This document shows positions 5,733 to 34,571 of a DNA stretch of 64,000 bases, piece by piece. Where the stretch lies: positions 1 to 64,000 of the forward strand of contig NZ_SAYT01000005.1 of assembly GCF_004296575.1 (NCBI RefSeq). The letters are read 5' to 3'. The number at the start of each line of letters is the position of its first letter. The stretch's first letter is position 1. The translations under genes and the position numbers were made by a program. This DNA is from Dyella amyloliquefaciens. Its GTDB lineage: Bacteria > Pseudomonadota > Gammaproteobacteria > Xanthomonadales > Rhodanobacteraceae. Below the pieces are notes generated by a model that saw only the letters and a program-made list of their open reading frames with translations, did no database searches and was not told the origin of the DNA.

Positions 5733-5882
5733 GTCGTTTCAGCCTCCCGCGGTTCGGCAAGCGCCATGCCACCAACGCATCCACAGACGTCACGGCCCGG
5801 TCGTTCGGTGCAACACGCTGCCGGGTCATCCAGCCCCCGGACATCGGTGCTGCCGACCCATCTGGCCACGGCATGCGCAGCA

Positions 5883-6680
5883 CTATACGTCGAACGTACC
5901 CACGATGATGCTGGATGCCTTGACGATGGCCACGACGGTCGTGCCTTCGCTCAACGCCAGGGCGTCCAGGCTCCCGTTGGTGATGACGGAAACGATGACG
6001 TTGCCGCCCTCCAGTTCCACGCCGATTTCGGCGTTCACGGCGCCACGCTTGATGTAGGAGACCCGCCCCTTCAACTGGTTGCGGGCGGAGAGGCGCATGG
6101 AGTCGTCGGGCAGGCCGATGATCACGGAGGACGCCTTGATCAGGGCAAAGGCGCTCTTGCCGGGTACCAGCCCCAGGTTGTGGGTGCTTTCGTGGGTCAC
6201 GGTGGCGATCAACTGCTGCCCGCCCTGGATATCCAGCTGGATGACATCGTTGACGGCGCCGCTGTTGATGGCAGCCACGGTGCCGGCCAATTGGTTGCGC
6301 GCACTCGTCTTCATCATGAAACGCCTCACCAGTTCGATGTCGGAGAGCGGGTTGTCGGCAATGCTGCTGAGTTGTTTCAGGAACTGCTGGTGGACGGCTT
6401 CCATGTGCTGGAAGACCTCGATCAACTGACGGGCACGTGGCGTCAGTACCGCGCCACCGCCGCTGCGTCCGCCGACGGCCCGTAGCACGAGCGGCTCGCC
6501 GGCAAGGTTGTTCATGGCGTCAACCGCCTCCCAGGCGCCCTTGTAGCTCATGCCTACTTCGCGGGCGGCCGCCGCGATGGAGCCGGACTCGCCGATCTTC
6601 ATCAGCAACTGGATACGGTCGTGGCCGCCAAAATTGCGGCCATTGGCCTCGAGGCCGAGGGTACCCTTGATGGAAAGCAT
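5883..6680 (-). CDS. modE: Molybdate-responsive transcriptional regulator ModE
   Basis: The 265-residue product is almost the length of E. coli ModE. An N-terminal winged helix (LysR-like) with GSIAAAAREVGMSYKGAW at about residues 33-50 is followed by two molybdate-binding Mop domains. These begin with near-identical SARNQLAGTV and SARNQLKGRV segments and each has a GAVN turn. ModE dimers bind molybdate or tungstate and then repress or activate target operons. The ATG at 6680 has AAGGAG nine bases ahead; a GTG at 6701 overlaps that site. The gene follows the TonB receptor by 275 bases on the same strand. A matching operator lies ahead of the first gene of that operon, which makes autoregulation of the whole unit likely. 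Confidence 0.93.
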   Translation of the reverse strand: MLSIKGTLGLEANGRNFGGHDRIQLLMKIGESGSIAAAAREVGMSYKGAWEAVDAMNNLAGEPLVLRAVGGRSGGGAVLTPRARQLIEVFQHMEAVHQQFLKQLSSIADNPLSDIELVRRFMMKTSARNQLAGTVAAINSGAVNDVIQLDIQGGQQLIATVTHESTHNLGLVPGKSAFALIKASSVIIGLPDDSMRLSARNQLKGRVSYIKRGAVNAEIGVELEGGNVIVSVITNGSLDALALSEGTTVVAIVKASSIIVGTFDV

Positions 6681-6955
6681 CGAACTGGGCTCCTTGTGCA
6701 CGGTAACCAGCGCAGTTGGACGCCAGTACCCGAGGCCGGTGAATCGTCACGACTTCACCGCACCGCCACCGTCCCTTGCCGAGCGCCATGCTTCAGCGAC
6801 TCGGCAGCAACTGCGGCGGTCGTCTCGGGTTGATCGATGAATGGCCCATGGCCATCCGGATCGGACCAACGCCCCACGGAAGCCATCAGGCCGGCACCTG
6901 CCAGGGCACGGTCAAACGGACAGAGTCATCATGACGTTGAAAACTTATACGAGCC

Positions 6956-9022
6956 TTAGAGCCTCATGCGCAAGGTGGCGTAGTAGTTGCGCCCCTCCTC
7001 GGGGAACCCGTCGACCAGCTGGTAGTTGTCGTCGAACAGGTTGCGCACGCCCAGGAACAGGTCCAGCCGTGGCGTGAAACTCAACGTGGCATTGATGTTG
7101 GCCAGGGTGTAGGAGCCGGTCTGGTAGTAGCGCGTGCCCGCCGTGTTGACGGTCCAGCGGTTGCTGGCCGACTCGATGCTCGGTGTTAGCGCAAACAACC
7201 GGCTGATCTGCCAGTCCACATAGGCGAACAGCTTGGAGTTCGGCACGCCGGTGGGCCGGAAGATGGGCAGCTCCGGCGCTTTCAGGTTGCGGTGGATGTA
7301 GGTGTAGTTGCCGCCGAAGCTCAGCTTGTCGGACCAGTGCTGGGTGATGGACACTTCGCCGCCGTAGTAGTCGCCGCTGCCCGCGTTGCGGGTCTGGTTG
7401 GTGCTGCCATAAGGCGGCGGCAGCACCACCGGCACCTGAATGAGCGCGTCGGTGAGGTCGCTGTAGAACAGCGCGCCCTTCAGCTCCAGCCCCTGCCGAG
7501 GCTGCCACAGCGTGCCCACCTCGTAGTTGGTGGCGCGCTCGGGCTTGATGCCGGGGTTGGGCACCGCCGTGCCGAAGCGCGAGCTGAAGCGTTCGAACAG
7601 TGTGGGAAACCGGGTGCGCGAGGAGACGTTGGCGTAGATGTTGGACTGCTCGTCCAGTCGCCAGGTGGCCGCCATCTGCCAGTTGAAGGCCTGGTTGTCC
7701 TTCAGCGGGTAATGCACCAGCACGTTGCTGTTGTAGTCCTCGGCCTGTTTGAGGTCGAGCCAGTCGTAGGAGATGCCGCCGACGATGTCTAGGCGTTCGG
7801 CGGCCTGCCAGGTGTCCTCGAGCGCCAGCGACCAGGTGTCCTGGATGGAGGTCTGGTGCGGCTCGGTGAATTCGCGTGGCGCGTAGCTGGTCTGCCATTC
7901 CACATGCTTGTCGCGGCGATAGAACAACGCGGCCTTCAAGGTGTTGTCGGGAATGATCTTGGTGCCGGCCTCGACGCTGCCGCCGCTGGCCGTGTCGTCG
8001 TAGTAGCTGCGGAACGACTTGCCCAGCGTCTGTCGCGTCATCGCCGGGTTGTCGTACGAGAACAGGCCGTTCTTGAAGGTGTTGTAGTAGAGCTTGCCGT
8101 TGACGTAGAAGTCGTCGCCGAACTGCGTGTGCGACAGGAACGAAACGCTGTCGATGTCCCAGTAAGGCCAGTCCCAGTAGCGTTGCGTGGCGACGGGATC
8201 GGTGACGTGCAGCGGCGCCTCCTTCGAACCCTTCTGGCGGATGGCATTGATGGAGTATTCGTCGGTGGCGTTGGGCGTCCAGCCGGCCTTGAGGTTGAGG
8301 CGCCAGTCGTCGCTGGCTGAATTGATGCGCTTGCCGTCCGGCTGGTTGGCGGTGGCATGGAAGTTGTCGGAAAGGCTGAAGCTGTCCTGCTTGTTGCTCG
8401 CCCCGGAAATCTGCAGGTAGTAGTGCTCCTGCCGTGTACCGAGGATCGCGGAGACCTGGTTGCCGTTGTAGTGGCCATGGCCATCGAAGTCGGCACCGAC
8501 CTGCACTTCACCCTCGAACGGCGCGGCCGGCTTGCGCGTGACCAGGTTGATCGAACCGCCCAGCGCGCCGGGACCATCGAGCACGGACACATAGCCCTTG
8601 GCGATCTGGATCTGCGACAGGTCGGCGGTGAGGAAGCGGTTGAAATCGAGCCGGTTGTCCGCCGGCAGGAACACACGCACGCCATCGATCGACAAGGTGG
8701 TCTGGAAGCGATCGAAACCGCGGATGTAGATCAGACGCTCGTTGCGCGAACCGCCGCTGTTCGACTCCGACGTACCGGGCACGAGGTTGAGCGCATCCGC
8801 GACGGTCTCGGTATGGAAGGTCTGCATCTCCTTGGCAGTGAGCACGCTGCCGCCGAGCTGTTCGCCATCGCGGTTGTACGCGGTGACATGTACCTGGCCC
8901 AGCTCGTAGACCTGGGTTGATGCATTGCTGCTGGTGTCCTGCTGCGCGAAGACAGCAGCGGGAGCGGCCAGGCCAGCGAGGGCGAGTGCAACGTGACGGC
9001 ACAGGCGGGACTGCTTCGACAT
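6956..9022 (-). CDS. TonB-dependent outer-membrane receptor
   Basis: The 688-residue product has a signal peptide ending near AVFA (about residue 26). A plug domain covers about residues 35-155, with LIYIRGFDRFQTTLSIDGVR and the LDGPGALGGSINLVTRKP end, followed by a 22-strand type beta-barrel. The C-terminus is YYATLRMRL, with Leu rather than the usual Phe. Such receptors use the proton-motive force via TonB to import chelated metals, siderophores or other scarce solutes. The ATG at 9022 has GAAGGAG ahead of it, placed in the 13-base gap after the cytochrome stop codon, so the genes are co-transcribed. The ModE box at the head of the operon suggests a molybdate- or tungstate-related ligand; this is inference. 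Confidence 0.92.
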   Translation of the reverse strand: MSKQSRLCRHVALALAGLAAPAAVFAQQDTSSNASTQVYELGQVHVTAYNRDGEQLGGSVLTAKEMQTFHTETVADALNLVPGTSESNSGGSRNERLIYIRGFDRFQTTLSIDGVRVFLPADNRLDFNRFLTADLSQIQIAKGYVSVLDGPGALGGSINLVTRKPAAPFEGEVQVGADFDGHGHYNGNQVSAILGTRQEHYYLQISGASNKQDSFSLSDNFHATANQPDGKRINSASDDWRLNLKAGWTPNATDEYSINAIRQKGSKEAPLHVTDPVATQRYWDWPYWDIDSVSFLSHTQFGDDFYVNGKLYYNTFKNGLFSYDNPAMTRQTLGKSFRSYYDDTASGGSVEAGTKIIPDNTLKAALFYRRDKHVEWQTSYAPREFTEPHQTSIQDTWSLALEDTWQAAERLDIVGGISYDWLDLKQAEDYNSNVLVHYPLKDNQAFNWQMAATWRLDEQSNIYANVSSRTRFPTLFERFSSRFGTAVPNPGIKPERATNYEVGTLWQPRQGLELKGALFYSDLTDALIQVPVVLPPPYGSTNQTRNAGSGDYYGGEVSITQHWSDKLSFGGNYTYIHRNLKAPELPIFRPTGVPNSKLFAYVDWQISRLFALTPSIESASNRWTVNTAGTRYYQTGSYTLANINATLSFTPRLDLFLGVRNLFDDNYQLVDGFPEEGRNYYATLRMRL

Positions 9023-9035
9023 GGGGCGCTCCTTC

Positions 9036-10361
9036 CTAGAGTGATGAGAGAAAAGCGAGTACGGCGCGCCGCTGGGATGCATCCAGCTCGCGATAGCGAC
9101 GTACGGCGTTGGACGCTTCGCCGCCGTGCCAGAGAATTGCTTCGGTTACGCTGCGCGCCCGGCCGTCATGCAGATAAAGGGCGCCGGGCCGGATCAGCGG
9201 CGCGAGGCCGAGACCCCAGAGCGGCGCTGTGCGCCATTGCCGGCCGGAGGCGAGGCCATCGGGTCGGCCGTCCGCCAGTCCGTCGCCCATGTCGTGCAGC
9301 AGCAGATCGGTATAGGGATGAATCTCCGACGCACCCAGCTTGCTGGCCACAGGTGCGTCGACCGGCAGGTTCGGACGATGGCAGCTCGCGCATCCGATGC
9401 GTTCGAACAGCGCGCTGCCCTCACTCGTTTCCCTGGTCGGTGCCTGCTGCGATGGCGGCACCAGCGACTGTTGGTACGCGACCAGCGCGTCGAGCAGATC
9501 GTCGGTGATTTCCGGATGGCCGCCGTCCGGTGCATCCAGGCAGGCTCGCTGCTCCGGCATGCAATTGGGTGAGGCGAGCAGCGAGGAGGTGATGCCCATG
9601 TCCTCGTGCAGCGCCACCTGCGTCTGTTGCCGAACGCTGGGCTGGTTGGCCTTCCAGCCGAAGCGTCCGAGGGCAACGCTGCGTGTCGCGATATCCCACA
9701 CACGATTGGCTTGCCCGTGCACGCCCTGCCCTTGTGCGAGCTGTTCCTGTGCGATAGCCAACAGGGCCGACTCCGGCACCGCTTCGAGCAGCCCTGCTGC
9801 GGTGATCGATGGCGCCATGCGCAGCGACAGCATCGTGCCCTCTGCCAAGGGGCCATATCCCAGCGCGCGAACCTGCAGCTTCGGCGCGCGCAGGCGGATC
9901 GTCTGGCCGTCCAACCAGGCCGACGACTGCTCGACCCAGCGCACCGAAAGCTGTGCTTCGGCAGGTACGCCCGGTATGCCCTCGGTCTGCAGCTGCACGC
10001 CGTAATGGGGTTCGTCGACCACGGCGCCCTGCTTGTCCCTGGTCGACAGCCGCACGATCGCCGAGCGCAGCGGCGGACCACTGTCCGGCATGTCGCCGCG
10101 ACCGTTGAGCAGATGGCAGGCGCCGCACGACAAGGCGTTGTAGAGCGGCCCCAGTCCGTCGAATTCCGGTTGTGCGAGGGACGGCGCGATCAGCCAGGGC
10201 TGGTTGAATACCGAAGCACCTTGCGTCCGTTGCGCGGCCTGCGCTGGGGATTCCGCCGGCAGGGTCTGCGTGAGGGCGAGGCGCGAGCGCTCGTTAGCCC
10301 ACCCAGCAGTTGCCACCGTGGCGAGGCAGCTCGCTATCCATGCAAGCCTGCGGAGGTTCAC
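9036..10361 (-). CDS. Di-haem c-type oxidoreductase (DUF1111/COG3488 family)
   Basis: The 441-residue product has a signal peptide (about residues 1-22) and two c-type haem motifs, CGACH at 79-83 and CASCH at 324-328, plus the LHDGRA and ILWHGGEA segments typical of the di-haem oxidoreductase family. Reported members are predicted periplasmic electron-transfer proteins, often beside metal-uptake genes; the substrate is not established. The GTG start at 10361 overlaps the TGA of the upstream binding-protein gene in a GTGA, which implies translational coupling. The open frame reaches 10427 but lacks a better start. It may change the redox state of the imported metal complex; that is inference. 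Confidence 0.88.
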   Translation of the reverse strand: MNLRRLAWIASCLATVATAGWANERSRLALTQTLPAESPAQAAQRTQGASVFNQPWLIAPSLAQPEFDGLGPLYNALSCGACHLLNGRGDMPDSGPPLRSAIVRLSTRDKQGAVVDEPHYGVQLQTEGIPGVPAEAQLSVRWVEQSSAWLDGQTIRLRAPKLQVRALGYGPLAEGTMLSLRMAPSITAAGLLEAVPESALLAIAQEQLAQGQGVHGQANRVWDIATRSVALGRFGWKANQPSVRQQTQVALHEDMGITSSLLASPNCMPEQRACLDAPDGGHPEITDDLLDALVAYQQSLVPPSQQAPTRETSEGSALFERIGCASCHRPNLPVDAPVASKLGASEIHPYTDLLLHDMGDGLADGRPDGLASGRQWRTAPLWGLGLAPLIRPGALYLHDGRARSVTEAILWHGGEASNAVRRYRELDASQRRAVLAFLSSL

Positions 10362-11701
10362 GGCGCGGGGATGCCGTCGAGCAGCCGCTGCGCCTCCTGG
10401 GCGTTGGCGTCCAATTGCGTTCGCCACTGCGCTTCGGTCGAGGCCTGCTGCGGGTTCGGTGCGGCGTCCTTCATGCGATCGTCGGCGCGGCGAAACAGCG
10501 CCTGCAACGACGAATCATCCGCCTGTTTCGCGGTGACCGGCGGCGTGCCCAGCAATTGCCTGACCTTGGCGAGACTGGCCTTGAGCGTCGGGTCGGGCTG
10601 CGCGGATGCCTTCGCCTCCAACTGGTGCAGCCGCTCCCACAACGTGGCCAGCTGGTCGCGTCGCTGCGTCAGCATGGTGTCGAACAGCGCGACCACCAGC
10701 CCGCTGCGCGCCTGCGTCAGCGCGGGGTCATAGGGAAAGCCCTGGTCGGGCGAACGCTTGAACGGATCGAAGGTGTCGGCCGGCGCCTTCGCATAGACCG
10801 ACGGGCGCACCGGATAGCGCGCGATGTCCGGCTGAAACAGCATCTGCTGCCCCTGTGCGGACAGCACGAAAGCCGCGAAGGCCTGTGCTGCCTTGGGATG
10901 TGGCGCCTGCTTGAGCACGGCCACCTGCGCGGGCAGGAAAGCGGTGCGATCCGGATAAACCATCTGCACGGGCTTGCCGTTGGCCGATGCGCTGCGCACC
11001 AGGAAATCCACGCTGAGGCCTATCGGGGTGATTCCGTCGGCCACCTGGTCGAGTCCTTGCGATGGCTTGCCGCTGAGCTTTCCCTGCGTCACACCCTCGC
11101 TCAGCAGGGCCCAACCGTCTGCCCAGCCCTCGGCCTGCAGCACGATGTCGTACAGCGCCGGTGCAAAGCCGACCTTGGCCGGGTCGGGCCACGCCACCTT
11201 GCCTGCATAGGTGGCGTCGGCGAGTGCCTGCCAGGTCTTTGGCGTTGTGATCGAATGGCGTTGCAGCTCGCCGGTGTTGACGGCCAGGCCGTAGCCCGCC
11301 ACCTCGAAGGCTTCGAAACGGTGCTGCGGATCGGAGATCCACTGGTGCCCGATGCGGCCCGGCAGTGGCTGGCGATCCACCGTCAGCGAAGCCAGCCTTC
11401 CCTGCTCCGCCAGCTGGGCGAAGCTCGCCGGCGACGGTGTCCAGTAGACATCGATGCCGCCACCGTCGGGCTGGTGCAGGCGGTTCAGCGCGTCCTGCGA
11501 ATGCGCCCAGACGATGCTGACCGAGGTGCCCGGATGCGCTGCCTCGAAGGCCTGCTGGTAGGCCGTGGTCAAGGCGTCCGGATAGCTGGTCAGGACAACC
11601 ACCGTGTCGGCAGTCGGCGCGGTCTGGCCCAGCGCCGGCTGCGGCATCGCGCAGCACATTCCCCACATCGCCGCCAAGGCGGCCAGGACAGGACGAACCA
11701 T
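10358..11701 (-). CDS. Periplasmic solute-binding protein (type 2, iron-like), first gene of ModE-box operon
   Basis: The 447-residue product has a signal peptide ending near ALGQ (residue 25) and a type 2 periplasmic-binding fold: VVVLTSYPDALTTAYQQAFE at the mature start, then a DVYWTPSP segment and LVRSASANGKPVQMVYP in the C-lobe. This resembles iron(III)/thiamine-type binding proteins more than classical ModA. The last ~130 residues are an unusual helical, Gln-rich extension after the usual fold ends. The ATG at 11701 has GAGGGG ahead. No ABC permease or ATPase gene follows; instead it is coupled by GTGA overlap to a di-haem protein and a TonB receptor. The ligand is unknown. Confidence 0.85.
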   Translation of the reverse strand: MVRPVLAALAAMWGMCCAMPQPALGQTAPTADTVVVLTSYPDALTTAYQQAFEAAHPGTSVSIVWAHSQDALNRLHQPDGGGIDVYWTPSPASFAQLAEQGRLASLTVDRQPLPGRIGHQWISDPQHRFEAFEVAGYGLAVNTGELQRHSITTPKTWQALADATYAGKVAWPDPAKVGFAPALYDIVLQAEGWADGWALLSEGVTQGKLSGKPSQGLDQVADGITPIGLSVDFLVRSASANGKPVQMVYPDRTAFLPAQVAVLKQAPHPKAAQAFAAFVLSAQGQQMLFQPDIARYPVRPSVYAKAPADTFDPFKRSPDQGFPYDPALTQARSGLVVALFDTMLTQRRDQLATLWERLHQLEAKASAQPDPTLKASLAKVRQLLGTPPVTAKQADDSSLQALFRRADDRMKDAAPNPQQASTEAQWRTQLDANAQEAQRLLDGIPAP

Positions 11702-11711
11702 GGGAACCCCT

Positions 11712-11735
11712 CGCTATATAGGCATCTACACAACG
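11712..11735 (-). promoter_or_regulatory. ModE operator (molybdate-responsive box)
   Basis: CGCTATATA and TACACAACG, six bases apart on the plus strand, match the E. coli modA operator half-sites (CGTTATATT and TACATAACG, also six bases apart) at 15 of 18 positions. It ends 10 bases before the ATG at 11701. On the coding strand the TATATA could itself be the -10 element, so bound ModE would block transcription. A modE gene sits at the end of the same gene cluster. Confidence 0.75.
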
Positions 11736-12246
11736 GTAGGCCAAAGGTGATCCAATCCGCTCTCGTCCGCAAGATGTTGCCGGGGCGATCGTGAGAATCC
11801 GAGGCGTGTCAAAACCTCGCACGGGGCCGATCTGCCACCGATGACGAGAGCGGAGCCACCGGCGGCGTGACCCGGGGCCATGCTCTTGCCCTCACGCAGC
11901 CGCATGCCCTGGCCAGGCACCTGCTGAAGGCCGGAGCAACATGGCTCGCATCACCGCTCCGCCGCGGCCTGCTCCCGGGAGGCCGACGGCCTCGTTGCCA
12001 TCCACCACGCCGGCCACCGTCGAGCGCAACGCTCCCGTGACGGCGCAGGAAACTGCCGTTTTGATGACCCCTCACGGTCAAAACCGCGTCAGGTTCGCTA
12101 TGCTGCGAGCACCGCATCGAGGCCGCCTCCGGGGCCCGAAGCATGAAAAGGCCCGGTCTCCAAGCCGGTCCCTGTCTGGAAGTGCAAGCGTGGGAGCTTC
12201 GTGATCCAAGTGAACTGCAACATGAGCGAAGGGCTTGGTTCGCACC
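11736..12246. other. Intergenic region between the ModE-box operon and GH30 gene
   Basis: About 510 bases with no convincing gene. A perfect GTTTTGA/TCAAAAC inverted repeat (12058-12064 and 12078-12084) lies about 165 bases ahead of the GH30 start and could be an operator. No terminator with a T-run is seen. Confidence 0.45.
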
Positions 12247-13794
12247 ATGGATGAGCGCAAGTCGGCCACCGGCCTTGCCGCCGCTCTTCCCATCGCTTTG
12301 ATCACCCTGCTCACCCTCGCGGCCATCTACGCGCCGCGCTTCGAGCTTCCCAAGGTGGTGACCAAGGTGATCCCTGCGGTCCGGCCGGTGGTGCCGGGCG
12401 TCGATCTGTGGCTGAGCACGGAGGATCGCCGGTTGCAGCTGGCGCGTCAGCCCGAAGTCGAGATGCACGCACGCGGCACGGAACCCGCCGATATCGTCAT
12501 CGACATCAGCAAGACCTTCCAGACCATGACCGGGTTCGGCGCGGCGATGACCGACTCGTCGGCGTGGCTGCTGCAGAACAAGCTCAACGCGTTCCAGCGC
12601 AACGCGCTGTTGCACGAACTCTACGGCCCACCGCCCAATCTCAACCTCAACATGATGCGCCTGACCATCGGCGCCTCGGATTTCTCGTTGAAGCTGTACA
12701 CCCTGGATGATGTTCCGCCCGGCGAGGACGATCCTCAGCTCAAGCATTTCAATGTCACGTCCAATCTGCGCGACGTGATACCGACGGTGCGCGAGGTGCT
12801 CTCGATCAATCCCGCGCTGCTCATCATCGCATCGTCGTGGAGTGCCCCGGCATGGATGAAGACGAGCCAGAACCTGATTGGCGGCGAGCTGCTCGAGCAG
12901 TACGAAAGCACCTACGCGGACTACCTCGTCAAGTATCTCGACACGTATCGCGGCTACGGCATCCCCATCTTCGCCCTGACGCTGCAGAACGAACCCAGCT
13001 ACTCACCGATCACCTACCCGGGCATGGAAATGTCCGCCACCACGCGGGCGCGCGTCATCGGGCAATACCTCGGTCCCAAGCTGGAAATGCGCAAGGAAAA
13101 GACGCGCATTCTGGAATGGGATCACAACTGGAACCAGCCCGAACAACCATTGACCGTGCTGGCCGATCCCGACGCCGCGCGCTATATCGATGGCGTGGCG
13201 TGGCATTGCTATGAAGGCAGCCAGTATGCGCAGGGCCGCGTGCATCGCGCGTATCCCAAGAAGGACACCTACATCACCGAATGCTCCGGCGGTGACTGGG
13301 CATCCAGCGTCAACGGCGAGCTGATCTGGTTCTCGCGGAACCTGCTGGTCACCGGCATCCGGCAGTGGGCGCGCGGCGTCCTGTACTGGAACCTGGTGCT
13401 GGATGAAAACCACGGCCCGCACTTCGGCGGATGCGCCGCCTGCAAGGGCGTGATCACGATCGATTCGCGTACGGGTGCGGTGAGCCGCAACGACGAGTAC
13501 TACGCGTTCGCGCACTTCAGCCAGTTTCTGTTTCCTGGCGCCACCCGCGTGGAATCCACCGCCACCGACAAGGAACACGTCGACAACGTGGCCTTCCAGA
13601 ATGCCTCCGACGGCTCGATCGTCCTGGTGGTCGTCAACAGCAACAAGGAAGCACGCCCCGTCTCGGTGGCACAGGACCAGACCCGCTTCGACTACACCAT
13701 GCCGCCGCGCAGCGTGGCGACGTTCGTGTGGTACCCGGGCCAGTCGGGCGTGTTCATGCAACACGACGGCGGATGGTTGAATTCCGCGCCATAG
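12247..13794 (+). CDS. Glycoside hydrolase family 30 protein, membrane-anchored or secreted
   Basis: The 515-residue product starts with a hydrophobic helix (residues 10-29) that could be a signal peptide or an inner-membrane anchor. The catalytic TIM barrel follows with TGFGAAMTDSSAW near 95-107, the acid/base Glu249 in LQNEPSY and the nucleophile Glu345 in TECSGG, both classical for GH30 (glucosylceramidase / beta-1,6-glucanase / xylanase group). The short beta domain closes at VATFVWYPG. The substrate cannot be assigned, but the glucosylceramidase/beta-glucanase subgroup fits better than glucuronoxylanase. The ATG at 12247 is chosen, with an upstream TTG at 12235 as an alternative close to AAGGG. 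The gene is alone on the plus strand. Confidence 0.88.
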   Translation: MDERKSATGLAAALPIALITLLTLAAIYAPRFELPKVVTKVIPAVRPVVPGVDLWLSTEDRRLQLARQPEVEMHARGTEPADIVIDISKTFQTMTGFGAAMTDSSAWLLQNKLNAFQRNALLHELYGPPPNLNLNMMRLTIGASDFSLKLYTLDDVPPGEDDPQLKHFNVTSNLRDVIPTVREVLSINPALLIIASSWSAPAWMKTSQNLIGGELLEQYESTYADYLVKYLDTYRGYGIPIFALTLQNEPSYSPITYPGMEMSATTRARVIGQYLGPKLEMRKEKTRILEWDHNWNQPEQPLTVLADPDAARYIDGVAWHCYEGSQYAQGRVHRAYPKKDTYITECSGGDWASSVNGELIWFSRNLLVTGIRQWARGVLYWNLVLDENHGPHFGGCAACKGVITIDSRTGAVSRNDEYYAFAHFSQFLFPGATRVESTATDKEHVDNVAFQNASDGSIVLVVVNSNKEARPVSVAQDQTRFDYTMPPRSVATFVWYPGQSGVFMQHDGGWLNSAP

Positions 13795-27233: not shown

Positions 27234-27974
27234 TTAAGGCGTATAGCCCTGCAGCTTCGCTTCGATCTGCCGCGGGTTCGCACCCTCGGCAATCGCCACC
27301 AGACCCTCGATCAGGATCTCGCGCATCTGCGTCTGCTTGTGAATCAGGCTCTTCAGGCGCGCCGACATCGGCAGCATCAGCAGGTTGGCAAGCGCCACGC
27401 CGTAGATGGTGGCGACGAACGCCGCTGCGATGCCGTGACCGAGCTTGCTGGGGTCGGCGAGGTTCTGCATCACTGCCATCAGGCCCATCACGGCGCCGAT
27501 GATGCCCATGGTGGGCGAGAAGATGCCGGCGTTCTCGAACACCTTGGCGCCGGCGAGATCATGGTGCTCGCGCGCATCCACTTCCACTTCGAGCACGCCG
27601 CGGATGGCCTCCGGCTCGCTGCCATCCACCAGCAGCTGCAGGCCCTTGCGCACGAAGGTGTCGCTTTCCGAATCGATCTGCGGCTCCAGGCCCAGCAGGC
27701 CCTGCCGACGCGAGATCTCGCTCCAGCCGACGATGCGACTGATCAGGTCGCTGGGCTGGTGCTGCGGTGGCTTGTACACCAGCGGGAACAGCGTCATCGC
27801 ATGCTTGAGCACCTTGCCGGAGTTCTGCACCAGCAGCGCGGCGATGGTGCCGAGGAACACGATCACGAAGGCAGCCGGGTTCCACAGCGCTTCCACGCTG
27901 GAGCCCTTGAGGACGGTGCCGACGATGATGACGATGAACGCCAGGATCGTGCCGATGAGACTTACCAGGTCCAT
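27234..27974 (-). CDS. motC: Flagellar stator protein MotC (MotA family)
   Basis: The 246-residue product has four membrane helices: a pair at the N-terminus (about residues 4-22 and 31-51) and a pair at about 150-170 and 180-200. The MotA signature FENAGIFSPTMGIIGAVMGL and a cytoplasmic loop with charged residues that contact FliG are present. It forms the proton channel with MotD. Its ATG is one base beyond the cheA stop codon, so translation is probably coupled. This cheA-motC spacing leaves no room for the cheB gene found there in Pseudomonas. Confidence 0.92.
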   Translation of the reverse strand: MDLVSLIGTILAFIVIIVGTVLKGSSVEALWNPAAFVIVFLGTIAALLVQNSGKVLKHAMTLFPLVYKPPQHQPSDLISRIVGWSEISRRQGLLGLEPQIDSESDTFVRKGLQLLVDGSEPEAIRGVLEVEVDAREHHDLAGAKVFENAGIFSPTMGIIGAVMGLMAVMQNLADPSKLGHGIAAAFVATIYGVALANLLMLPMSARLKSLIHKQTQMREILIEGLVAIAEGANPRQIEAKLQGYTP

Positions 27975-27975
27975 G

Positions 27976-29934
27976 TCAGGCGCTCATTCGCAGTGTAGGG
28001 AGAAGTTGGCCGTCGGCGTCCGCCAGGCCGGCAAGATCCATCACCAGCGCCAGACGGCCGTCGCCGGTGACGGTCGCGCCTGCCACGGCAGGCACGCCTT
28101 CGAACAGGGGACCAAGCGGCTTCACCATCACGTCTTCGCGACCCAGCACCTCGTGCACGAGGCAACCCAGGCGCAGATGGCCGATGTGCAGCACCACCAC
28201 GTGACCGCCGGGCAGATCGTTCACGCCCACCCAACCGGCGAGATCAGCCAGCGCCAAGGCACGTCCACGATGCGAAGCGACCACGCGGCCGTCCAATTGC
28301 TGTTGCTGGCCCGGCGCCATTTCGAACACTTCCTCGACGTTGCTGAGCGGCAGCGCGAGCAGGCGCGCGCCCACGCGCACCATCAGCACGCGCTGGATGG
28401 CCAGCGTCAGCGGCACGGCGAGTTCCAGCGTACTGCCGCGACCGAGCTTCGAGCGCACCTGCAAGATGCCGCCGAGCTCGGCCACGCGCGTCTTCACCAC
28501 GTCCATGCCCACGCCGCGACCGGAGATGTCGGAGACGGTGGCGGCCGTGCTGAAGCCGGGTCGGAAGATCAGTTCATAGCATTCGTTTTCGGTGAGGCGC
28601 GCGGCTTGCGCCTCATCGATGACGCCCTTCTCCACCGCTTTGCGGCGCAGGACGTCGGGATTCATGCCTCGTCCGTCATCGGACACGGAGATGACGATGC
28701 GCTCGCCACGCTGGCTCGCCGACAACGTGACCTTGCCCTTGCGCGGCTTGCCGGCGCGCTCGCGATCGGCCGGCATTTCCAGGCCGTGGTCGAGCGCGTT
28801 GCGGATCAGGTGCACCATCGGATCGGCCAGCGATTCGACCAGGCTGCGATCGAGATCGGTGCCCTCTCCTTCCTGCACCAGCTCCACTTCCTTGCCGAGC
28901 TGGCGCGAAAGGTCGCGCACGATGCGCGGGAAGCGCTGGAACAGACGGCCGACCGGCTGCATGCGCATGCCTAGCACGGCGTTCTGCAGCGCATCGGCCA
29001 CGCGATCGAGTTCGCTCGCGGCGAGCGCGAGGGTTTCATCGCCCTGCTTCGCCGCAAGGCTCAGCAGGCGATTGCGCACCAGCACCAGTTCACCGGCGCG
29101 ATGCACGAGGGAATCGAGGCGCGCGGTATCCACGCGCACGGTGTTTTCCGGCGGCGGCGCGGCATGCCGCGCGGCGGACGACTGCGTCGGAGGCGATGCG
29201 GGTGCGGGAGCCGGCGCGGAAGCCATGCCGCTGGGCGCCGAACCTTTGCCATGCAGGTTGTCCAGCAGGGCTTCGAATTCGTCGTCGCTGATGGTGTCCG
29301 ACGCGGACGATGCCTGCGGCGCGTCGTGCGCACCCGGCGAGCCACCCTTGCCATGCAGGTTGTCCAGCAGCGCTTCGAACTCGTCGTCGGAAATCGCGCC
29401 TGCATCGGCCGGGGCCGCAGCAGGTGCACCCGGCGCGCCGCCGGTGCCGTAGAGGCTGTCCAGCAGGGCTTCGAATTCGGAATCGTCGATGCTGCCGTCG
29501 CTCGGCGGCGGTGCGACGGGCGCGGCAACCGGCTTCGGCGCGGGAACTGCACGTGCCCCCGGCGACAGGCGATCGAGCAGTCCCTTCGGCGGCATGGCCA
29601 TGGCCTGGCCGCCGGCCAACGCGGCCAGCATGTCGTTGAGCAGGTCCAGCGCTTCAAGCAGCGCATCCATGCGTTCGGCATCGATCAGCAACTGTCCGTT
29701 GCGCGCTACGTTGAGCAGGTCTTCCGCGTGATGGCACAGCTGCACCATCGGCTCGACGGCGAGGAAGCCCGCGCCGCCCTTCACCGTGTGGAACGCGCGA
29801 AACACCGCGTTCAGCAGCTCGCTGTCGCGCGGAGCGCCTTCCAGCCCGATCAGCTGGTCGCCCAGGCGCTGCACGAGGTCCCCGGCTTCCACCAGGAAGG
29901 CATCGCGCAGCTCGCTGTCGAACGTGGGATCCAT
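27976..29934 (-). CDS. cheA: Chemotaxis histidine kinase CheA
   Basis: The 652-residue product has an HPt domain with phospho-acceptor His49 in FHTVKGGAGFL, a long linker, a dimerisation helix pair from about 268, HATPase with HLIRNALDHGLE, VSDDGRGMNPD and GRGVGMDVVKTRV, and a C-terminal CheW-like domain. It autophosphorylates on receptor signals and passes phosphate to CheY. In place of an obvious P2 domain, the linker carries three copies of a 16-residue block with core EFEALLDxLHGKG at about 150-165, 182-197 and 216-231. The ATG at 29934 has AAGGACAG ahead. A palindromic element separates it from cheZ. Confidence 0.95.
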   Translation of the reverse strand: MDPTFDSELRDAFLVEAGDLVQRLGDQLIGLEGAPRDSELLNAVFRAFHTVKGGAGFLAVEPMVQLCHHAEDLLNVARNGQLLIDAERMDALLEALDLLNDMLAALAGGQAMAMPPKGLLDRLSPGARAVPAPKPVAAPVAPPPSDGSIDDSEFEALLDSLYGTGGAPGAPAAAPADAGAISDDEFEALLDNLHGKGGSPGAHDAPQASSASDTISDDEFEALLDNLHGKGSAPSGMASAPAPAPASPPTQSSAARHAAPPPENTVRVDTARLDSLVHRAGELVLVRNRLLSLAAKQGDETLALAASELDRVADALQNAVLGMRMQPVGRLFQRFPRIVRDLSRQLGKEVELVQEGEGTDLDRSLVESLADPMVHLIRNALDHGLEMPADRERAGKPRKGKVTLSASQRGERIVISVSDDGRGMNPDVLRRKAVEKGVIDEAQAARLTENECYELIFRPGFSTAATVSDISGRGVGMDVVKTRVAELGGILQVRSKLGRGSTLELAVPLTLAIQRVLMVRVGARLLALPLSNVEEVFEMAPGQQQQLDGRVVASHRGRALALADLAGWVGVNDLPGGHVVVLHIGHLRLGCLVHEVLGREDVMVKPLGPLFEGVPAVAGATVTGDGRLALVMDLAGLADADGQLLPTLRMSA

Positions 29935-29952
29935 CAGGAGTCTGTCCTTGGT

Positions 29953-30151
29953 GCTTGTTCATGAACTCGGCCTTGCCCCACCGTCATTCCCGCGAAAGCG
30001 GGACAAGCGCACAGCGCCCGCAGGGCGGCCCCGAAGGGGCGAGCGCAGCGAGTAATCCAGTGACTTTCACCCCATGGCGAAGGCACTGGATCCCCGCTTT
30101 CGCGGGGATGACGTAGGGGAGATAACCGCCATGCCGAGATCATGAGCAGGC
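29953..30151. repeat. Palindromic repeat element between cheA and cheZ
   Basis: The inner arms CCCGCGAAAGCGGG (ending at 30002) and CCCCGCTTTCGCGGGG (from 30092) belong to longer inverted segments, 29976-30002 and 30092-30119, that also share CGTCAT/ATGACG and CCCC/GGGG. Outer arms of 19 bases (29953-29971 and 30133-30151) match at 15 positions, with GCCGAG and a CATGAGCAGGC end. The core contains CCAGTG/CACTGG. The whole looks like a small mobile palindromic element (MITE or BIME type) inserted between two operon genes. Confidence 0.65.
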
Positions 30152-30153
30152 TC

Positions 30154-30795
30154 TTAGAAGCCGAATTCGCTCAGCAGGCGGTCCGCCTCGTCCTGGCTGG
30201 TGACCTTGACCGGCGCGGCCGCGGCTTCGCCGTTGGCGAGCGCACCGGTGAGACTCACCAGTTCCAGCAGCGAGTTCTCCACGCTGCCGATGAAGTTGAC
30301 GACCTTCTTGATGCGCTGGCCGGCGAGATCCTGCCAGGACTGCGCCACCACGAAATCAGCCAGGCCATCGCGGCATTCGTTGGCGAACGACTGTGCCTGC
30401 TTCGCCAGCACATGGGCCACGTCTCCGTCGGGCGTGCCGTCGATCACGGCGTTGGCGTTCTCGGCCACCGCCTCTGCCTGCGGACGCATGCGCTCGGCGA
30501 AATCGAGCGTGCGATGCGCAGCCTGCGAACTCATTTCCAGCACGTCCTGCAGGTGCTGGCGTGCGTCGGCGACGCTGCCCGGCACGCCTTCCTGCGCGAG
30601 GTCGCCACCGAGGCGGCGCACGGCGTCGTGCAGGTCACGGGCCAGCAGGCCCAGCGCGCGGAACATGCGCTGCTCGCGCTGGCGCACCAGCACGTCGAGG
30701 GCCTGCTCGAAGGCGGCACCATCGGTGCTGTTGAGCAGGTCGTGCAATTCCTGCGGCATCGAGCCGCCGTCCATCAGGGACACTTGGGCGTTCAT
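30154..30795 (-). CDS. cheZ: CheY-phosphate phosphatase CheZ
   Basis: The 213-residue, mostly helical product has the catalytic segment [14 protein letters not shown] (Asp and Gln of the active site) at about residues 152-165, and the C-terminal CheY-binding tail [10 protein letters not shown]. It dephosphorylates CheY-P at the motor or pole. The ATG overlaps the cheY TGA as ATGA. Downstream, a palindromic element begins three bases beyond its stop codon, separating it from cheA. Confidence 0.94.
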
Positions 30796-31187
30796 GCGGT
30801 CGCTCCGCTGGCGGCAAGCCGCTCGAAGATCTTGGTGAGTTTTTCCTGCAGCGTGGCCGCGGTGAACGGCTTCACGATGTAGCCGTTCACGCCGGCCTGG
30901 GCGGCAGCGATGATCTGGTCGCGGTTGTTCTCGGCAGTGACCATCAGTACCGGCATGCCCTTCAGCGAGGGCTCGGCGCGGATCGCGCGCAGCAGGTCGA
31001 TGCCGGTCATGTTCGGCATGTTCCAGTCGGTGACGACCAGGTCGAAGGCGTTCGCCTTCAGCATGGTCAGTGCGTTCTCGCCGTCGTCGGCTTCCTGGAT
31101 GAGCGGATTGCTGAAACCCAGCTCCACCAGCAAGTTGCGGACGATGCGCCGCATGGTGGAAAAATCGTCCACCACGAGGATTTTCAT
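30792..31187 (-). CDS. cheY: Chemotaxis response regulator CheY
   Basis: The 131-residue single receiver domain has all key residues: Asp7/Asp8, phospho-acceptor Asp54, Thr84 and Lys106. The [20 protein letters not shown] start is typical of polar-flagellate CheY. Phosphorylated CheY binds FliM to switch rotation. The ATG at 31187 is chosen because homology starts there, with GGACAAGAAC ahead. It lies 73 bases after fliA and overlaps cheZ by four bases. Confidence 0.96.
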
Positions 31188-31260
31188 GTTCTTGTCCAAA
31201 GGGAGCTCCGCTTTTCTTATGAACGTGACAGGGATCGGGAAACTGGAAAGGTCAACGGGA

Positions 31261-32034
31261 TCAACGTGCTGCTCTGCTCTTCCTCGTTCCTCTTTCCCCC
31301 GTTCCTGATTCAGTCCATCCATCCATGCGCGCGCGCAAGCGCACGATGGCCTGGCCGTGGATCTGGCAGACGCGCGACTCGGTCACCCCAAGCACCGCGC
31401 CAATTTCCTTGAGGTTCAACTCCTCTTCGTAATACAGCGACATCACCAGCTGCTCGCGTTCCGGCAGGCTGCCGATGGCCTCGATCAGTGCCTCGCGCAT
31501 GCCGTTGTTCTCGACGCTCTCCGCCGGCCCGACGCTGTCGCCGTCGGCCACGTCGAACGCTGCGCCGCCTTCGGCATCGTCCGGCGCCGACAGGCTCAGC
31601 AACCGGGCGCTCGCCGCATCAGCCAGCACCTGGTGGTATTCCTCGGCACCCATGCCCAGGCGCCGCATCACTTCGGCGTCCTCGGCATCCTTGCCGGTTT
31701 CGATCTCGATCTGGCGTACCACTTCGGCCATCTCGCGCACCTTTCGGTGCACCGAGCGGGGCGTCCAGTCGGTGCGGCGCAGTTCGTCGAGCATCGCGCC
31801 ACGGATGCGGATGCCCGCAAACGTCTCGAAGCTCGCATTGCGTCCGGTGGCGAAATTACGCGCCGCTTCCAGCAGCCCGATCATGCCGGCCTGGATCAGG
31901 TCGCTCACGTCCACGCTCGGCGGCAGGCGGCCCATCAGGTGATAGGCAATCCGTCGCACCAGCGGCGCATGCTGGCGAACCAATTGATCGGCACTTTGCC
32001 GTTGCAGTTGCAGGTATTCGGAAGCCACGCTCAT
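31261..32034 (-). CDS. fliA: Flagellar sigma factor FliA (sigma28)
   Basis: The 257-residue sigma factor has region 2 ([32 protein letters not shown]) and region 4 ([33 protein letters not shown]). It drives late genes such as fliC, whose upstream DNA here contains a matching promoter. The ATG is three bases after the flhG stop codon. A tail of about 20 polar residues extends beyond region 4. No FlgM anti-sigma gene lies in the window. Confidence 0.95.
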
Positions 32035-32037
32035 GTC

Positions 32038-32979
32038 TCACCACCCAGTAGCCACTGCGGCCTGCCTGCTGAAGAAGGCAATACGGTCCAGGCCCAGTCG
32101 CTCGGGTTCACCCCATGTATCGACCGCACCTGCCAATTGCTTGAATGCCTGGCCCGAACGACTCGACGGCCACAGGTCCACCACCGCGCTCTGGCGCTTG
32201 ATGGCCTGCCTGAGCCGCTCGTCGTTCGGCACCATCCCCATGAATTCCAGGGCCACGTCGAGGAAGCGATCACTCACCCGGGCCAGCTTCTGGTGCAGCT
32301 GCTTGGCCTCGCCGAGGTTGCGCACCATGTTCGCGACCATGCGGAAACGCCGTACGCCGAAGTCGCGGCTCAACACCTTGAGCATCGCGTAGGCATCGGT
32401 GAGCGAGGCCGGCTCATCGCAGACCACCAGCACCACGTCGTCGGCCGCCGCGGCGAACATCGCCACGTTGTCGGACACGCCCGCGGCGGTATCCACCAGC
32501 AGGTAGTCCGGCGGCGTCACCAGGTCGTCGAAGGCGCGGATCACCGCTGCGTGCTCGTTGTTGCTGAGCTGCGCGAGGCGACGCGTGCCCGACCCGGCCG
32601 GCACCACCTTGAGACCGTGCGGTGCGGGAAGCAGCAGGTCCTCGATGGCGCAGGTGCCGTCCAGCAGATGCCCGATGTGGCGCGTGGGCGTGAGGCCCAG
32701 CAGCACGTCGATGTTCGCCAGCCCCATGTCGGCGTCGAGCAGGATCACCTCGTGCCCGGCCATCGACAGCGCCATGCCGAGGTTCACCGACACCGTGGTC
32801 TTGCCTACGCCGCCCTTGCCGCCCGCCACCGCGATGGCGCGGCAGCGTTTGCGGGGCGGTGGCGGACTGGCCAGGCCGAAGGCCTGGTCCTGTCCCGAAG
32901 GTTGCCTGCCATGCCGTTCCGCCAGGGCACGCAACATGCCCTCCAGGCCGATCGCCTGATTCATTGCAAATGCGCTCAT
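32038..32979 (-). CDS. flhG: MinD-like ATPase FlhG (FleN)
   Basis: The 313-residue ParA/MinD ATPase has the deviant P-loop GGKGGVGKTT at 53-62, LLDADMGLANIDVLLGL, and DYLLVDTAAGVSDNV. An N-terminal helix (MNQAIGLEGMLRAL) resembles the FlhF-activating DQAxxLR helix. FlhG limits the number of polar flagella by acting on FlhF and on FleQ. The ATG overlaps the flhF stop codon (ATGA). An open extension upstream of 32979 overlaps flhF coding and is not used. Confidence 0.94.
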   Translation of the reverse strand: MSAFAMNQAIGLEGMLRALAERHGRQPSGQDQAFGLASPPPPRKRCRAIAVAGGKGGVGKTTVSVNLGMALSMAGHEVILLDADMGLANIDVLLGLTPTRHIGHLLDGTCAIEDLLLPAPHGLKVVPAGSGTRRLAQLSNNEHAAVIRAFDDLVTPPDYLLVDTAAGVSDNVAMFAAAADDVVLVVCDEPASLTDAYAMLKVLSRDFGVRRFRMVANMVRNLGEAKQLHQKLARVSDRFLDVALEFMGMVPNDERLRQAIKRQSAVVDLWPSSRSGQAFKQLAGAVDTWGEPERLGLDRIAFFSRQAAVATGW

Positions 32980-34439
32980 GCGTTTGCCACCGCGAGTCCG
33001 AAACGTTCCGCCATCACATCGTCGTCCGCAGTCGCGGCGGCGTTGCCCTTGAGCACCTGGGCGGCGCGGCACACCAGCACGCGCGCATCAGCGGCGGCGA
33101 TGTCTTCCGGCACGCGCTGGCCGTCGGTGATGTAGTCGAGCGCGAGCCGGTGGCGGATGAGAACCGACAGCGCGCCACCGAGGCTGGGGGCCTCGTCGAG
33201 CTTGGTGAGGATGCATGCATGCGGACGCAGCGGCAGGTACGAGCGCACCGCTTCGTCGAGCGACGGCGCCTGCGCATTGGCGGCGAGCACCAGGCACGCA
33301 CGCAGGTCTCCACCGTTGGAAAGCACATCCAGCTGCTGCGTCAGGCGCGGATCACTGCCGGCCACGCCAGCGGTATCGACCAGCACGGTATGGCAACCGC
33401 GCAGCAGGCCCAGCACCTGGCGCAGGCTGTCGGCGTCGTAGGCCGGATACACGCGCACGCCGAGCAGACGGCCGTAATGTTCCAGCTGGGCTGTCGCGCC
33501 GATGCGGTAATGATCGGTGCTGACCAGCGCCACCTGATTGGCGCCGTGACGCATCACCGCACGCGCGGCGAGCTTGGCGATCGTGGTGGTCTTGCCGACG
33601 CCGGTCGGACCGACCAGTGCAGTGACGCCCGGACGCTCGGACAGGTCGCGGCGACTGATCGACAGGCTGCGGCTCAGCATGCCCAGCGGCAGGTAACGCG
33701 CCTGCTCGGCATTGAGGTTGCTCGGCAGATCGTCGACCAGCTGGCGGGCGACATCGGATTCGATGCCCAGGCGCGTCATCTCGCGCAGCACGCGGGCACG
33801 CAGCGGCTGGCGGCGCTCCATGTCGTTCCAGATCAGGCTGGAGAGCTGCGTTTCCAGCAGGTCGCGCAGGCTGCCCAGTTCGGCGCGCACGCGAGCGTTG
33901 TCCTGCATGGCGCGCTCGAGCAGCGGATGGATCGGTGCGGATGGATCGAACGATCCGATGGGCGCCACGGCCTCGACCGGAGCGGCGGGCGCCGCCGATG
34001 CGACTGGCATCCGGATCGGCGCGGGCGCGGCGGCCTGCACGGGCGACTCGACGGCACGCGGCGCTGCCACGCGCGACGGCAACGGGTCCGCGGACGGCGG
34101 CACGAAGTGCGCACGGCGCGAAAGCGACACCGTCACGCCGTCGTCACCATGACGGCTGGCCGTCGGCAGCGGCGGCGGAGTCACGTCGCCACGACGGATC
34201 GCCGCCGGCTTCGACTCCACCGGTGCTGGATCGGCCGGCGTATGCGACTCGACGTGCAGCGGCGCGCCGTGGCGGGCTGCCTCGCGCACCAGCGCCTCGT
34301 CGAAATCGACTGCGGCAATGATCTCGATGCCCTCGTCCATGCGACGCGTGGAGAGGATCACCGCATCCGGGCCCTGCTCCTCGCGCACTTCACGCATGGC
34401 CTGGCGCATGTCGGCGGCCACGAAACGTTTGATCTTCAT
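32976..34439 (-). CDS. flhF: Flagellar placement GTPase FlhF
   Basis: The 487-residue SRP-type GTPase has a basic N-terminal B domain, a low-complexity Pro/Ala linker (about 65-165), an N domain, and a G domain with P-loop GPTGVGKT at 277-284, VSTDHYRIGATAQLEHY and TVLVDTAGVAGSDPR. It directs flagellum assembly to the pole. The ATG at 34439 has CTGGAG ahead. A 132-base gap separates it from flhA, and a weak sigma54-like sequence lies in that gap. Confidence 0.95.
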   Translation of the reverse strand: MKIKRFVAADMRQAMREVREEQGPDAVILSTRRMDEGIEIIAAVDFDEALVREAARHGAPLHVESHTPADPAPVESKPAAIRRGDVTPPPLPTASRHGDDGVTVSLSRRAHFVPPSADPLPSRVAAPRAVESPVQAAAPAPIRMPVASAAPAAPVEAVAPIGSFDPSAPIHPLLERAMQDNARVRAELGSLRDLLETQLSSLIWNDMERRQPLRARVLREMTRLGIESDVARQLVDDLPSNLNAEQARYLPLGMLSRSLSISRRDLSERPGVTALVGPTGVGKTTTIAKLAARAVMRHGANQVALVSTDHYRIGATAQLEHYGRLLGVRVYPAYDADSLRQVLGLLRGCHTVLVDTAGVAGSDPRLTQQLDVLSNGGDLRACLVLAANAQAPSLDEAVRSYLPLRPHACILTKLDEAPSLGGALSVLIRHRLALDYITDGQRVPEDIAAADARVLVCRAAQVLKGNAAATADDDVMAERFGLAVANA

Positions 34440-34524
34440 GCGTTGAAACTCCAGGAGCGCGCGGCGCAGGTGGCGTGCAACGTCGCGTCCGCACGACGGC
34501 GGAATCCGCCCGTCGATGCGTTTG

Positions 34525-34540
34525 CGCTACTCATCTGCCA
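34525..34540 (-). promoter_or_regulatory. Weak candidate sigma54 promoter upstream of flhF
   Basis: The minus strand reads TGGCAGATGAGTAGCG, with the invariant GG and GC at the correct 12-base offset and TGGCA intact, but a poor -12 flank (TAGCG instead of TTGCW). It is in the 132-base flhA/flhF gap, the place expected for a FleQ/sigma54-driven flhF promoter. Confidence 0.3.
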
Positions 34541-34571
34541 ACCCTGCTTCGTCATCGCTCTGTCCCTTGTC

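Follow-up and report, generated by a model that had tools for sequence, protein, structure and literature searches.

The outer-membrane passage of molybdate, and above all of chelated molybdenum, is usually ascribed to porins. A gene unit of Dyella amyloliquefaciens (Gammaproteobacteria, Rhodanobacteraceae) raises the question of why a TonB-dependent receptor should stand behind a predicted operator of ModE, the molybdate-responsive regulator, and what such a receptor would carry. The unit is located on contig NZ_SAYT01000005.1 (assembly GCF_004296575.1), whose positions 1 to 64,000 form the whole stretch analysed here (64,000 nucleotides, hereafter the window). We consider it likely that the unit is a ModE-controlled outer-membrane route that scavenges molybdenum or tungsten and is induced when supplies of the metal run short. 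The cargo is probably chelated, and the present data do not separate tungsten from molybdenum. The unit comprises the following features:

11712-11735, strand not assigned: predicted ModE-type operator, half-sites 11712-11720 and 11727-11735 with a 6-base spacer
10358-11701, minus strand: periplasmic solute-binding protein (SBP), 447 amino acids; PF13416, E 4e-22
9036-10361, minus strand: di-haem oxidoreductase-like protein (DHOR), 441 amino acids; PF06537, E 7e-78, 262.6 bits, above the Pfam cut-off
6956-9022, minus strand: TonB-dependent receptor (TBDR), 688 amino acids; PF07715 (plug) and PF00593 (barrel), both above cut-off
5883-6680, minus strand: modE, full-length molybdate-responsive regulator, 265 amino acids; ModE helix-turn-helix and two Mop domains

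The gene unit and its operator

The four genes follow each other on the minus strand in the order SBP-DHOR-TBDR-modE; the start of DHOR overlaps the stop of SBP, TBDR begins 13 bases past DHOR, and 275 bases separate TBDR from modE if the ATG at 6680 is taken as the modE start. There is no permease gene within the SBP-DHOR-TBDR unit, and the host genome also encodes modABC-moeA-moaA, elsewhere, on contig C10. No sigma-70-type promoter was found in a scan of positions 5800-12300. An initial annotation had read this locus as an operon for a binding protein, a di-haem oxidoreductase and a TonB receptor with modE behind it, and these gene identities are confirmed by Pfam and NCBIfam. In ModE, the Mop model TIGR00638 scores above its cut-off in two stretches, while TIGR00637 gives 97.6 bits, slightly below its cut-off of 98.5, and NF007957 gives 178.6 bits (cut-off 369); residues 10-262 align with E. 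coli ModE (1o7l). For the receptor, none of the 25 best NCBIfam models listed reaches its cut-off; the best general matches are models of siderophore and haem receptors, and TIGR01783 (TonB siderophore receptors) gives 167.6 bits, below the curated cut-off of 223.5.

The operator reads CGCTATATA-GGCATC-TACACAACG and, exactly as had been claimed, ends 10 bases (11702-11711) upstream of the ATG of SBP, the first gene. In PMC545781, the consensus of E. coli ModE is given as the palindrome ATCGNTATATA-N6-TATATANCGAT, and against this independent consensus the site, taken at 11710-11737, agrees in 16 of 20 letters. With up to three mismatches allowed on both strands, the operator is the sole match in the window (mean of 0.01 in shuffled sequences). 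It is also the sole match with 0 mismatches in the genome, a value reached partly by construction, as the pattern used for the genome and window searches was built around the window site; seven other genomic matches have 3 mismatches, one of them being the same site on the opposite strand, and a backward control pattern gave 15 matches in the genome. By its sequence context the operator abuts the start codon in what appears to be a repressor-like position, and ModE would presumably bind there and repress the unit.

The receptor models named above suggest another cargo, namely an iron siderophore or a copper chelate, for which the ModE site would be secondary, e.g. where chelators bind both iron and molybdenum. 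We regard this as very improbable, despite the FbpA fold of SBP and the presence, in 18 of 88 receptor loci, of a gene clustering with the MbnH family, which is named after copper-chelate operons. As regards iron, the best Fur-box match ahead of the unit agrees with the Fur consensus in 10 of 19 letters, which is the commonest value among shuffled sequences, and Fur control of the unit is not favoured on these grounds. Nor does any of the 25 best receptor models reach its cut-off, and both ModE sites and ModE genes recur with the relatives of this receptor.

Conservation of the site ahead of receptor relatives

A contig scan with SBP alone found no relative, and receptor alignment was taken instead. 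It yielded 362 relatives among the candidates, of which the best 80, hence the nearest ones, were kept, all from named genomes. Together with the window and five further loci (L051, L065, L066, L058 and L056; locus numbers are ours) they make up 86 units, for which about 450 upstream bases (fewer in three) were scanned and scored by the number of letters matched among the 20 of the E. coli ModE consensus. A score of at least 15 was found in 53 of the 86 units, compared with 7 of 521 regions upstream of other open reading frames (ORFs) in the same loci (Fisher p ~2e-45, kinship ignored), and in none of 425 dinucleotide shuffles. The initial annotation had named a lack of conservation of the box ahead of orthologous operons as a refuting result; these counts show the opposite outcome. 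When receptors are grouped at 80% identity, 29 of the 56 clusters contain at least one site of 15/20 or better. Among the seven control hits, one lies at a modE gene (L101), two at tupA-like genes (L144, L146) and one at an MbnH-family gene (L088), the other three being uncharacterised.

A site of 20/20 is present in Pandoraea (L135), and Spirosoma and Larkinella (L147, L153) each have one of 15/20. Three Azospirillum plasmids carry orthologous SBP-DHOR-TBDR operons with two ModE-like palindromes upstream, and in L058, from the same class, the order TBDR-SBP-DHOR is followed by genes with ExbD and TonB domains, the site scoring 15/20. Whole-genome searches supplied 15 loci, of which 9 reach a score of 14 or more and 5 a score of 15 or more. 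Within the Rhodanobacteraceae, where conservation had been suggested as a check, the outcome is divided: the congeners lack the operon, while a site of at least 14 precedes the receptor in four of eight relatives from the family. These eight are among nine other family genomes with the receptor (G168 being the ninth), and all eight have either such a site or a Mod/ModE neighbour, as judged by tblastn.

Molybdenum and tungsten genes beside the receptor

A ModE-family gene is present in the fetched flanks of 32 of the 88 receptor loci (31 by clustering, and L100), where 0.32 such loci would be expected by length if one ModE gene is assumed per 4.5 Mb. All 33 ModE-family proteins, that of the window included, match TIGR00637 at E 1e-5 or better, and 14 have Mop domains. 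ModA-like genes occur in nine of the 88 loci (L076, L111 and L142 checked with NCBIfam, the rest by clustering alone), and in L142 modE-modABC is divergent from TBDR-SBP-DHOR. TupA-like genes are found in L144 and L146 and tupABC-like genes in L056, all below curated cut-offs. By clustering, 13 loci have a binding protein of the PF01497 type and 10 have a FecCD permease; a representative of each was searched against the PDB, and the two match HI1472 and HI1471, known as MolA and MolB, although the chain nearest to the binding protein is 4pag and HI1472 comes third. MolBC-A is named as a molybdate importer in PMC4031551. In L152, moeA sits between the ATPase and binding-protein genes. For comparison, no ModE gene was found in 12 control loci of SBP relatives lacking the receptor (168 kb), a test of little power, with 0.04 expected.

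These neighbours bear on a further explanation. ModE also acts at molybdoenzyme genes, and proteins with the SBP fold take sugar phosphates in addition to iron; the receptor could then import an organic substrate that feeds a molybdoenzyme, with ModE control and without carrying the metal. We give this little credence, as the relatives of the receptor adjoin metal importers (modABC, tupABC-like, MolAB-like) and moeA, no single enzyme recurs among the families identified in at least five loci, and the site abuts the start codon as a repressor site would.

Two observations on the neighbouring proteins may be added. ModE-family proteins without a Mop match number 19 of the 33 and are 115-228 amino acids long (L087, L090, L138, L144, L149 and others). 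A small protein of ~170 amino acids, seemingly secreted (L085:10809-11336 and seven more loci), lies near the receptor together with modE and modA or an MbnH-family gene; its representative has no match in Pfam or the PDB, and by eye it resembles what we presume to be a sulfite-oxidase-type domain.

The di-haem proteins and the binding protein

DHOR of the window contains two CxxCH haem motifs, CGACH and CASCH, and two such motifs are present in all 28 DHOR members compared, the window included. DHOR occurs in 25 of the 88 loci, and a gene clustering with the MbnH family in 18 others (e.g. L084:10563-11594). One representative of the latter was scanned; it scores above the Pfam cut-off for CCP_MauG and reaches 291.2 bits against the MbnH model (cut-off 362.85). 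The MbnH/MauG di-haem enzymes resemble the unit in that a di-haem enzyme stands beside a TonB receptor, but the window gene differs from them in being a DHOR (PF06537) without CCP_MauG, PF03150 being unlisted for it at E up to 0.001. Against solved structures DHOR gives only short matches in the haem region, and its structure model is poor (mean predicted local distance difference test score 57.9). The strongest pointer to a possible redox step is that two di-haem families recur alongside a single receptor family.

SBP is predicted to adopt the AfuA/FbpA fold with a C-terminal helical extension. It differs from the AfuA, FbpA and MctA binding proteins (for sugar phosphate, Fe3+ and metal-citrate, respectively) in having Trp65, the C-terminal extension and no adjoining permease gene in the window. 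Trp65 lies in a changed ligand loop, where relatives from receptor-free loci have N, S, K or R. It is conserved in all 27 DHOR-linked SBPs that cover this stretch (window included; the 28th, from L094, is cut) and also in three (L056, L100 and L127; not L126) of the four receptor-linked SBPs whose locus has no DHOR. MbnH oxidises a Trp of its partner protein, and we considered an analogous oxidation of SBP Trp65 by DHOR; since Trp65 tracks the receptor rather than DHOR, this was set aside and is kept as an open reading only.

Comparison within the genus

Neither SBP (E 1e-3) nor the receptor (E 1e-80) was found in any of the 17 congeners sampled, whereas 15 of 19 have ModE. The SBP-DHOR-TBDR unit was probably gained beside a resident modE, at a place where its kin have other outer-membrane genes. 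In three of the 15 congener modE loci an unrelated TonB receptor adjoins modE, with a site of 16-17/20 ahead of it:

L187:6648-9113: second TonB-dependent receptor, ~820 amino acids
L189:7077-9578: second TonB-dependent receptor, ~820 amino acids
L200:3538-5994: second TonB-dependent receptor, ~820 amino acids

This protein has only weak similarity to the receptor of the window, and a search of the window genome at E 1e-60 did not find it; it is a separate candidate for a molybdenum receptor. In eight other congener loci (L197, L198, L199 and L201-L205) a porin-like gene adjoins modE, with a site scoring 14 to 20, which in L204 and L205 lies some 0.6-0.8 kb from the porin-like gene. The gene encodes ~450 amino acids (e.g. 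L202:4764-6146, where the site scores 20/20) and is weakly similar to OprD (Pfam, 19.5 bits against a cut-off of 25, in one of four scanned). A site of at least 14 is absent from 4 of the 15 congener modE loci: in L185, L186 and L188 the porin-like gene is 3 to 7 kb from modE, and L206, with a partial modE match, has neither porin-like gene nor site. The window genome retains the porin-like gene as well, on contig C1 (L207), where no site scores higher than 12.

A porin-like gene at that place in 8 of 15 congener modE loci would suit a small anion, and one variant of the proposed route is that the receptor carries molybdate or tungstate as the free oxyanion, without a chelator, with SBP and DHOR assisting in another step. 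Loci in which the receptor occurs with ModE and ModABC but without SBP or DHOR (e.g. L085, L131) are in line with it. We nevertheless find this variant rather doubtful: the ligands of TonB receptors are typically large or rare, and the recurring di-haem gene, of one family or the other, is not obviously needed for a free oxyanion.

Proposed function and relation to known systems

Several observations weigh against a ModE-controlled route for molybdenum or tungsten. The site scores below 13 in 14 of the 86 units (L056, L092, L105, L107, L108, L109, L116, L120, L123, L131, L136, L138, L143 and L148), among which L116 is covered by only ~120 upstream bases and L105, L107 and L108 show an imperfect shifted palindrome, as judged by eye; 6 of the 15 loci from whole-genome searches score below 14. 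The ORF calls that define the control regions are crude, so that some coding DNA may be among them and make the contrast look better than it is, and related loci are not independent of one another. A complemented half-site pattern reaches at least 15 in 17 of the 86 units (everted and reversed patterns in 2 and 1), although such patterns make poor controls because they have a TATA core in common with real sites, and the upstream regions of other genes and the shuffles are the controls we prefer. The host modABC (L050) lacks a site of at least 13, so that the usual target of ModE is not visibly shared. SBP does not match the ModA model (TIGR01256 is unlisted for it at E up to 0.001, and the host modA scores 191.9 bits) and resembles sugar-phosphate and ferric binders. 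Finally, counting only the DNA covered, SBP is absent from 60 and DHOR from 63 of the 88 related loci.

With these reservations, a scavenging route for molybdenum or tungsten could work as follows. Molybdate-loaded ModE would occupy the operator near the ribosome-binding region and block transcription; when molybdate drops, ModE would leave and SBP, DHOR and TBDR would be made. Drawing on TonB energy, TBDR would bring in a compound of molybdenum or tungsten that is probably chelated, and SBP would take it in the periplasm. DHOR would probably reduce or oxidise the chelate or a partner protein, by which molybdate would be freed and passed to the ModABC of contig C10, as the unit itself encodes no permease. 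Of the TonB route with a haem protein for chelated molybdenum or tungsten, as first proposed, the metal is supported by site conservation and by the recurring molybdenum and tungsten neighbours, while the substrate and the redox role stay conjectural. In a broader version, which we put slightly short of an even chance, the receptor would represent a widespread TonB family for molybdenum or tungsten chelates, accompanied by a DHOR or MbnH-like enzyme that, by a redox step, releases the metal or matures a partner protein, and within the genus a ModE-controlled outer-membrane gate beside modE would have been swapped among the unit, the unrelated TonB receptor and the porin-like gene.

The unit shares with the E. 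coli-type ModE-modABC system a full-length ModE, an operator near consensus and presumed metal-sensing repression of uptake genes, but its target is a set of outer-membrane receptor genes, its SBP is not a ModA, and the operon has no permease. Like TonB receptors for metals (siderophore, haem, copper, nickel), TBDR has a plug and a barrel and presumably imports under a metal-sensing regulator; unlike them, it stays below the cut-off in all of the 25 best-matching curated models, and its regulator and neighbours indicate molybdenum or tungsten. The type VI secretion system-ModA-IcmP delivery of molybdate in Pseudomonas aeruginosa likewise involves an outer-membrane step (PMC8602904, PMC11734730), but it employs secreted ModA and IcmP instead of a TonB receptor operon beside modE. 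No ModE-controlled TonB receptor was found among the matches listed in open-access full text, and an earlier prediction may exist in the subscription literature or RegPrecise. If the proposal is true, a TonB receptor family linked with ModE across Alpha-, Beta- and Gammaproteobacteria and some Bacteroidota would make active outer-membrane uptake of molybdenum testable in common laboratory strains, and a substrate class could be named for receptors that among named models come closest to those of siderophore and haem uptake. It would then have to be explained why the receptor is often accompanied by a di-haem enzyme.

Adjoining features

One short element was noticed upstream of modE by blastn and alignment with the congeners:

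6925-6958, strand not assigned: short element 5' of modE, reaching into the terminal part of the receptor gene

This AAAACTTATGCGAGCCTTA-like element is common to the window and L185, L186 and L188, and similarity fades beyond it, the blastn match stopping at 6958 for L186 and at 7051 for L188; it is possibly a junction or a regulatory element. On the other side of the unit, a glycoside hydrolase family 30 gene (12235-13794, plus strand) adjoins it, and chemotaxis and flagellar genes (MotA-like, CheA-like, FHIPEP) are located at 27234-36662 of the window.

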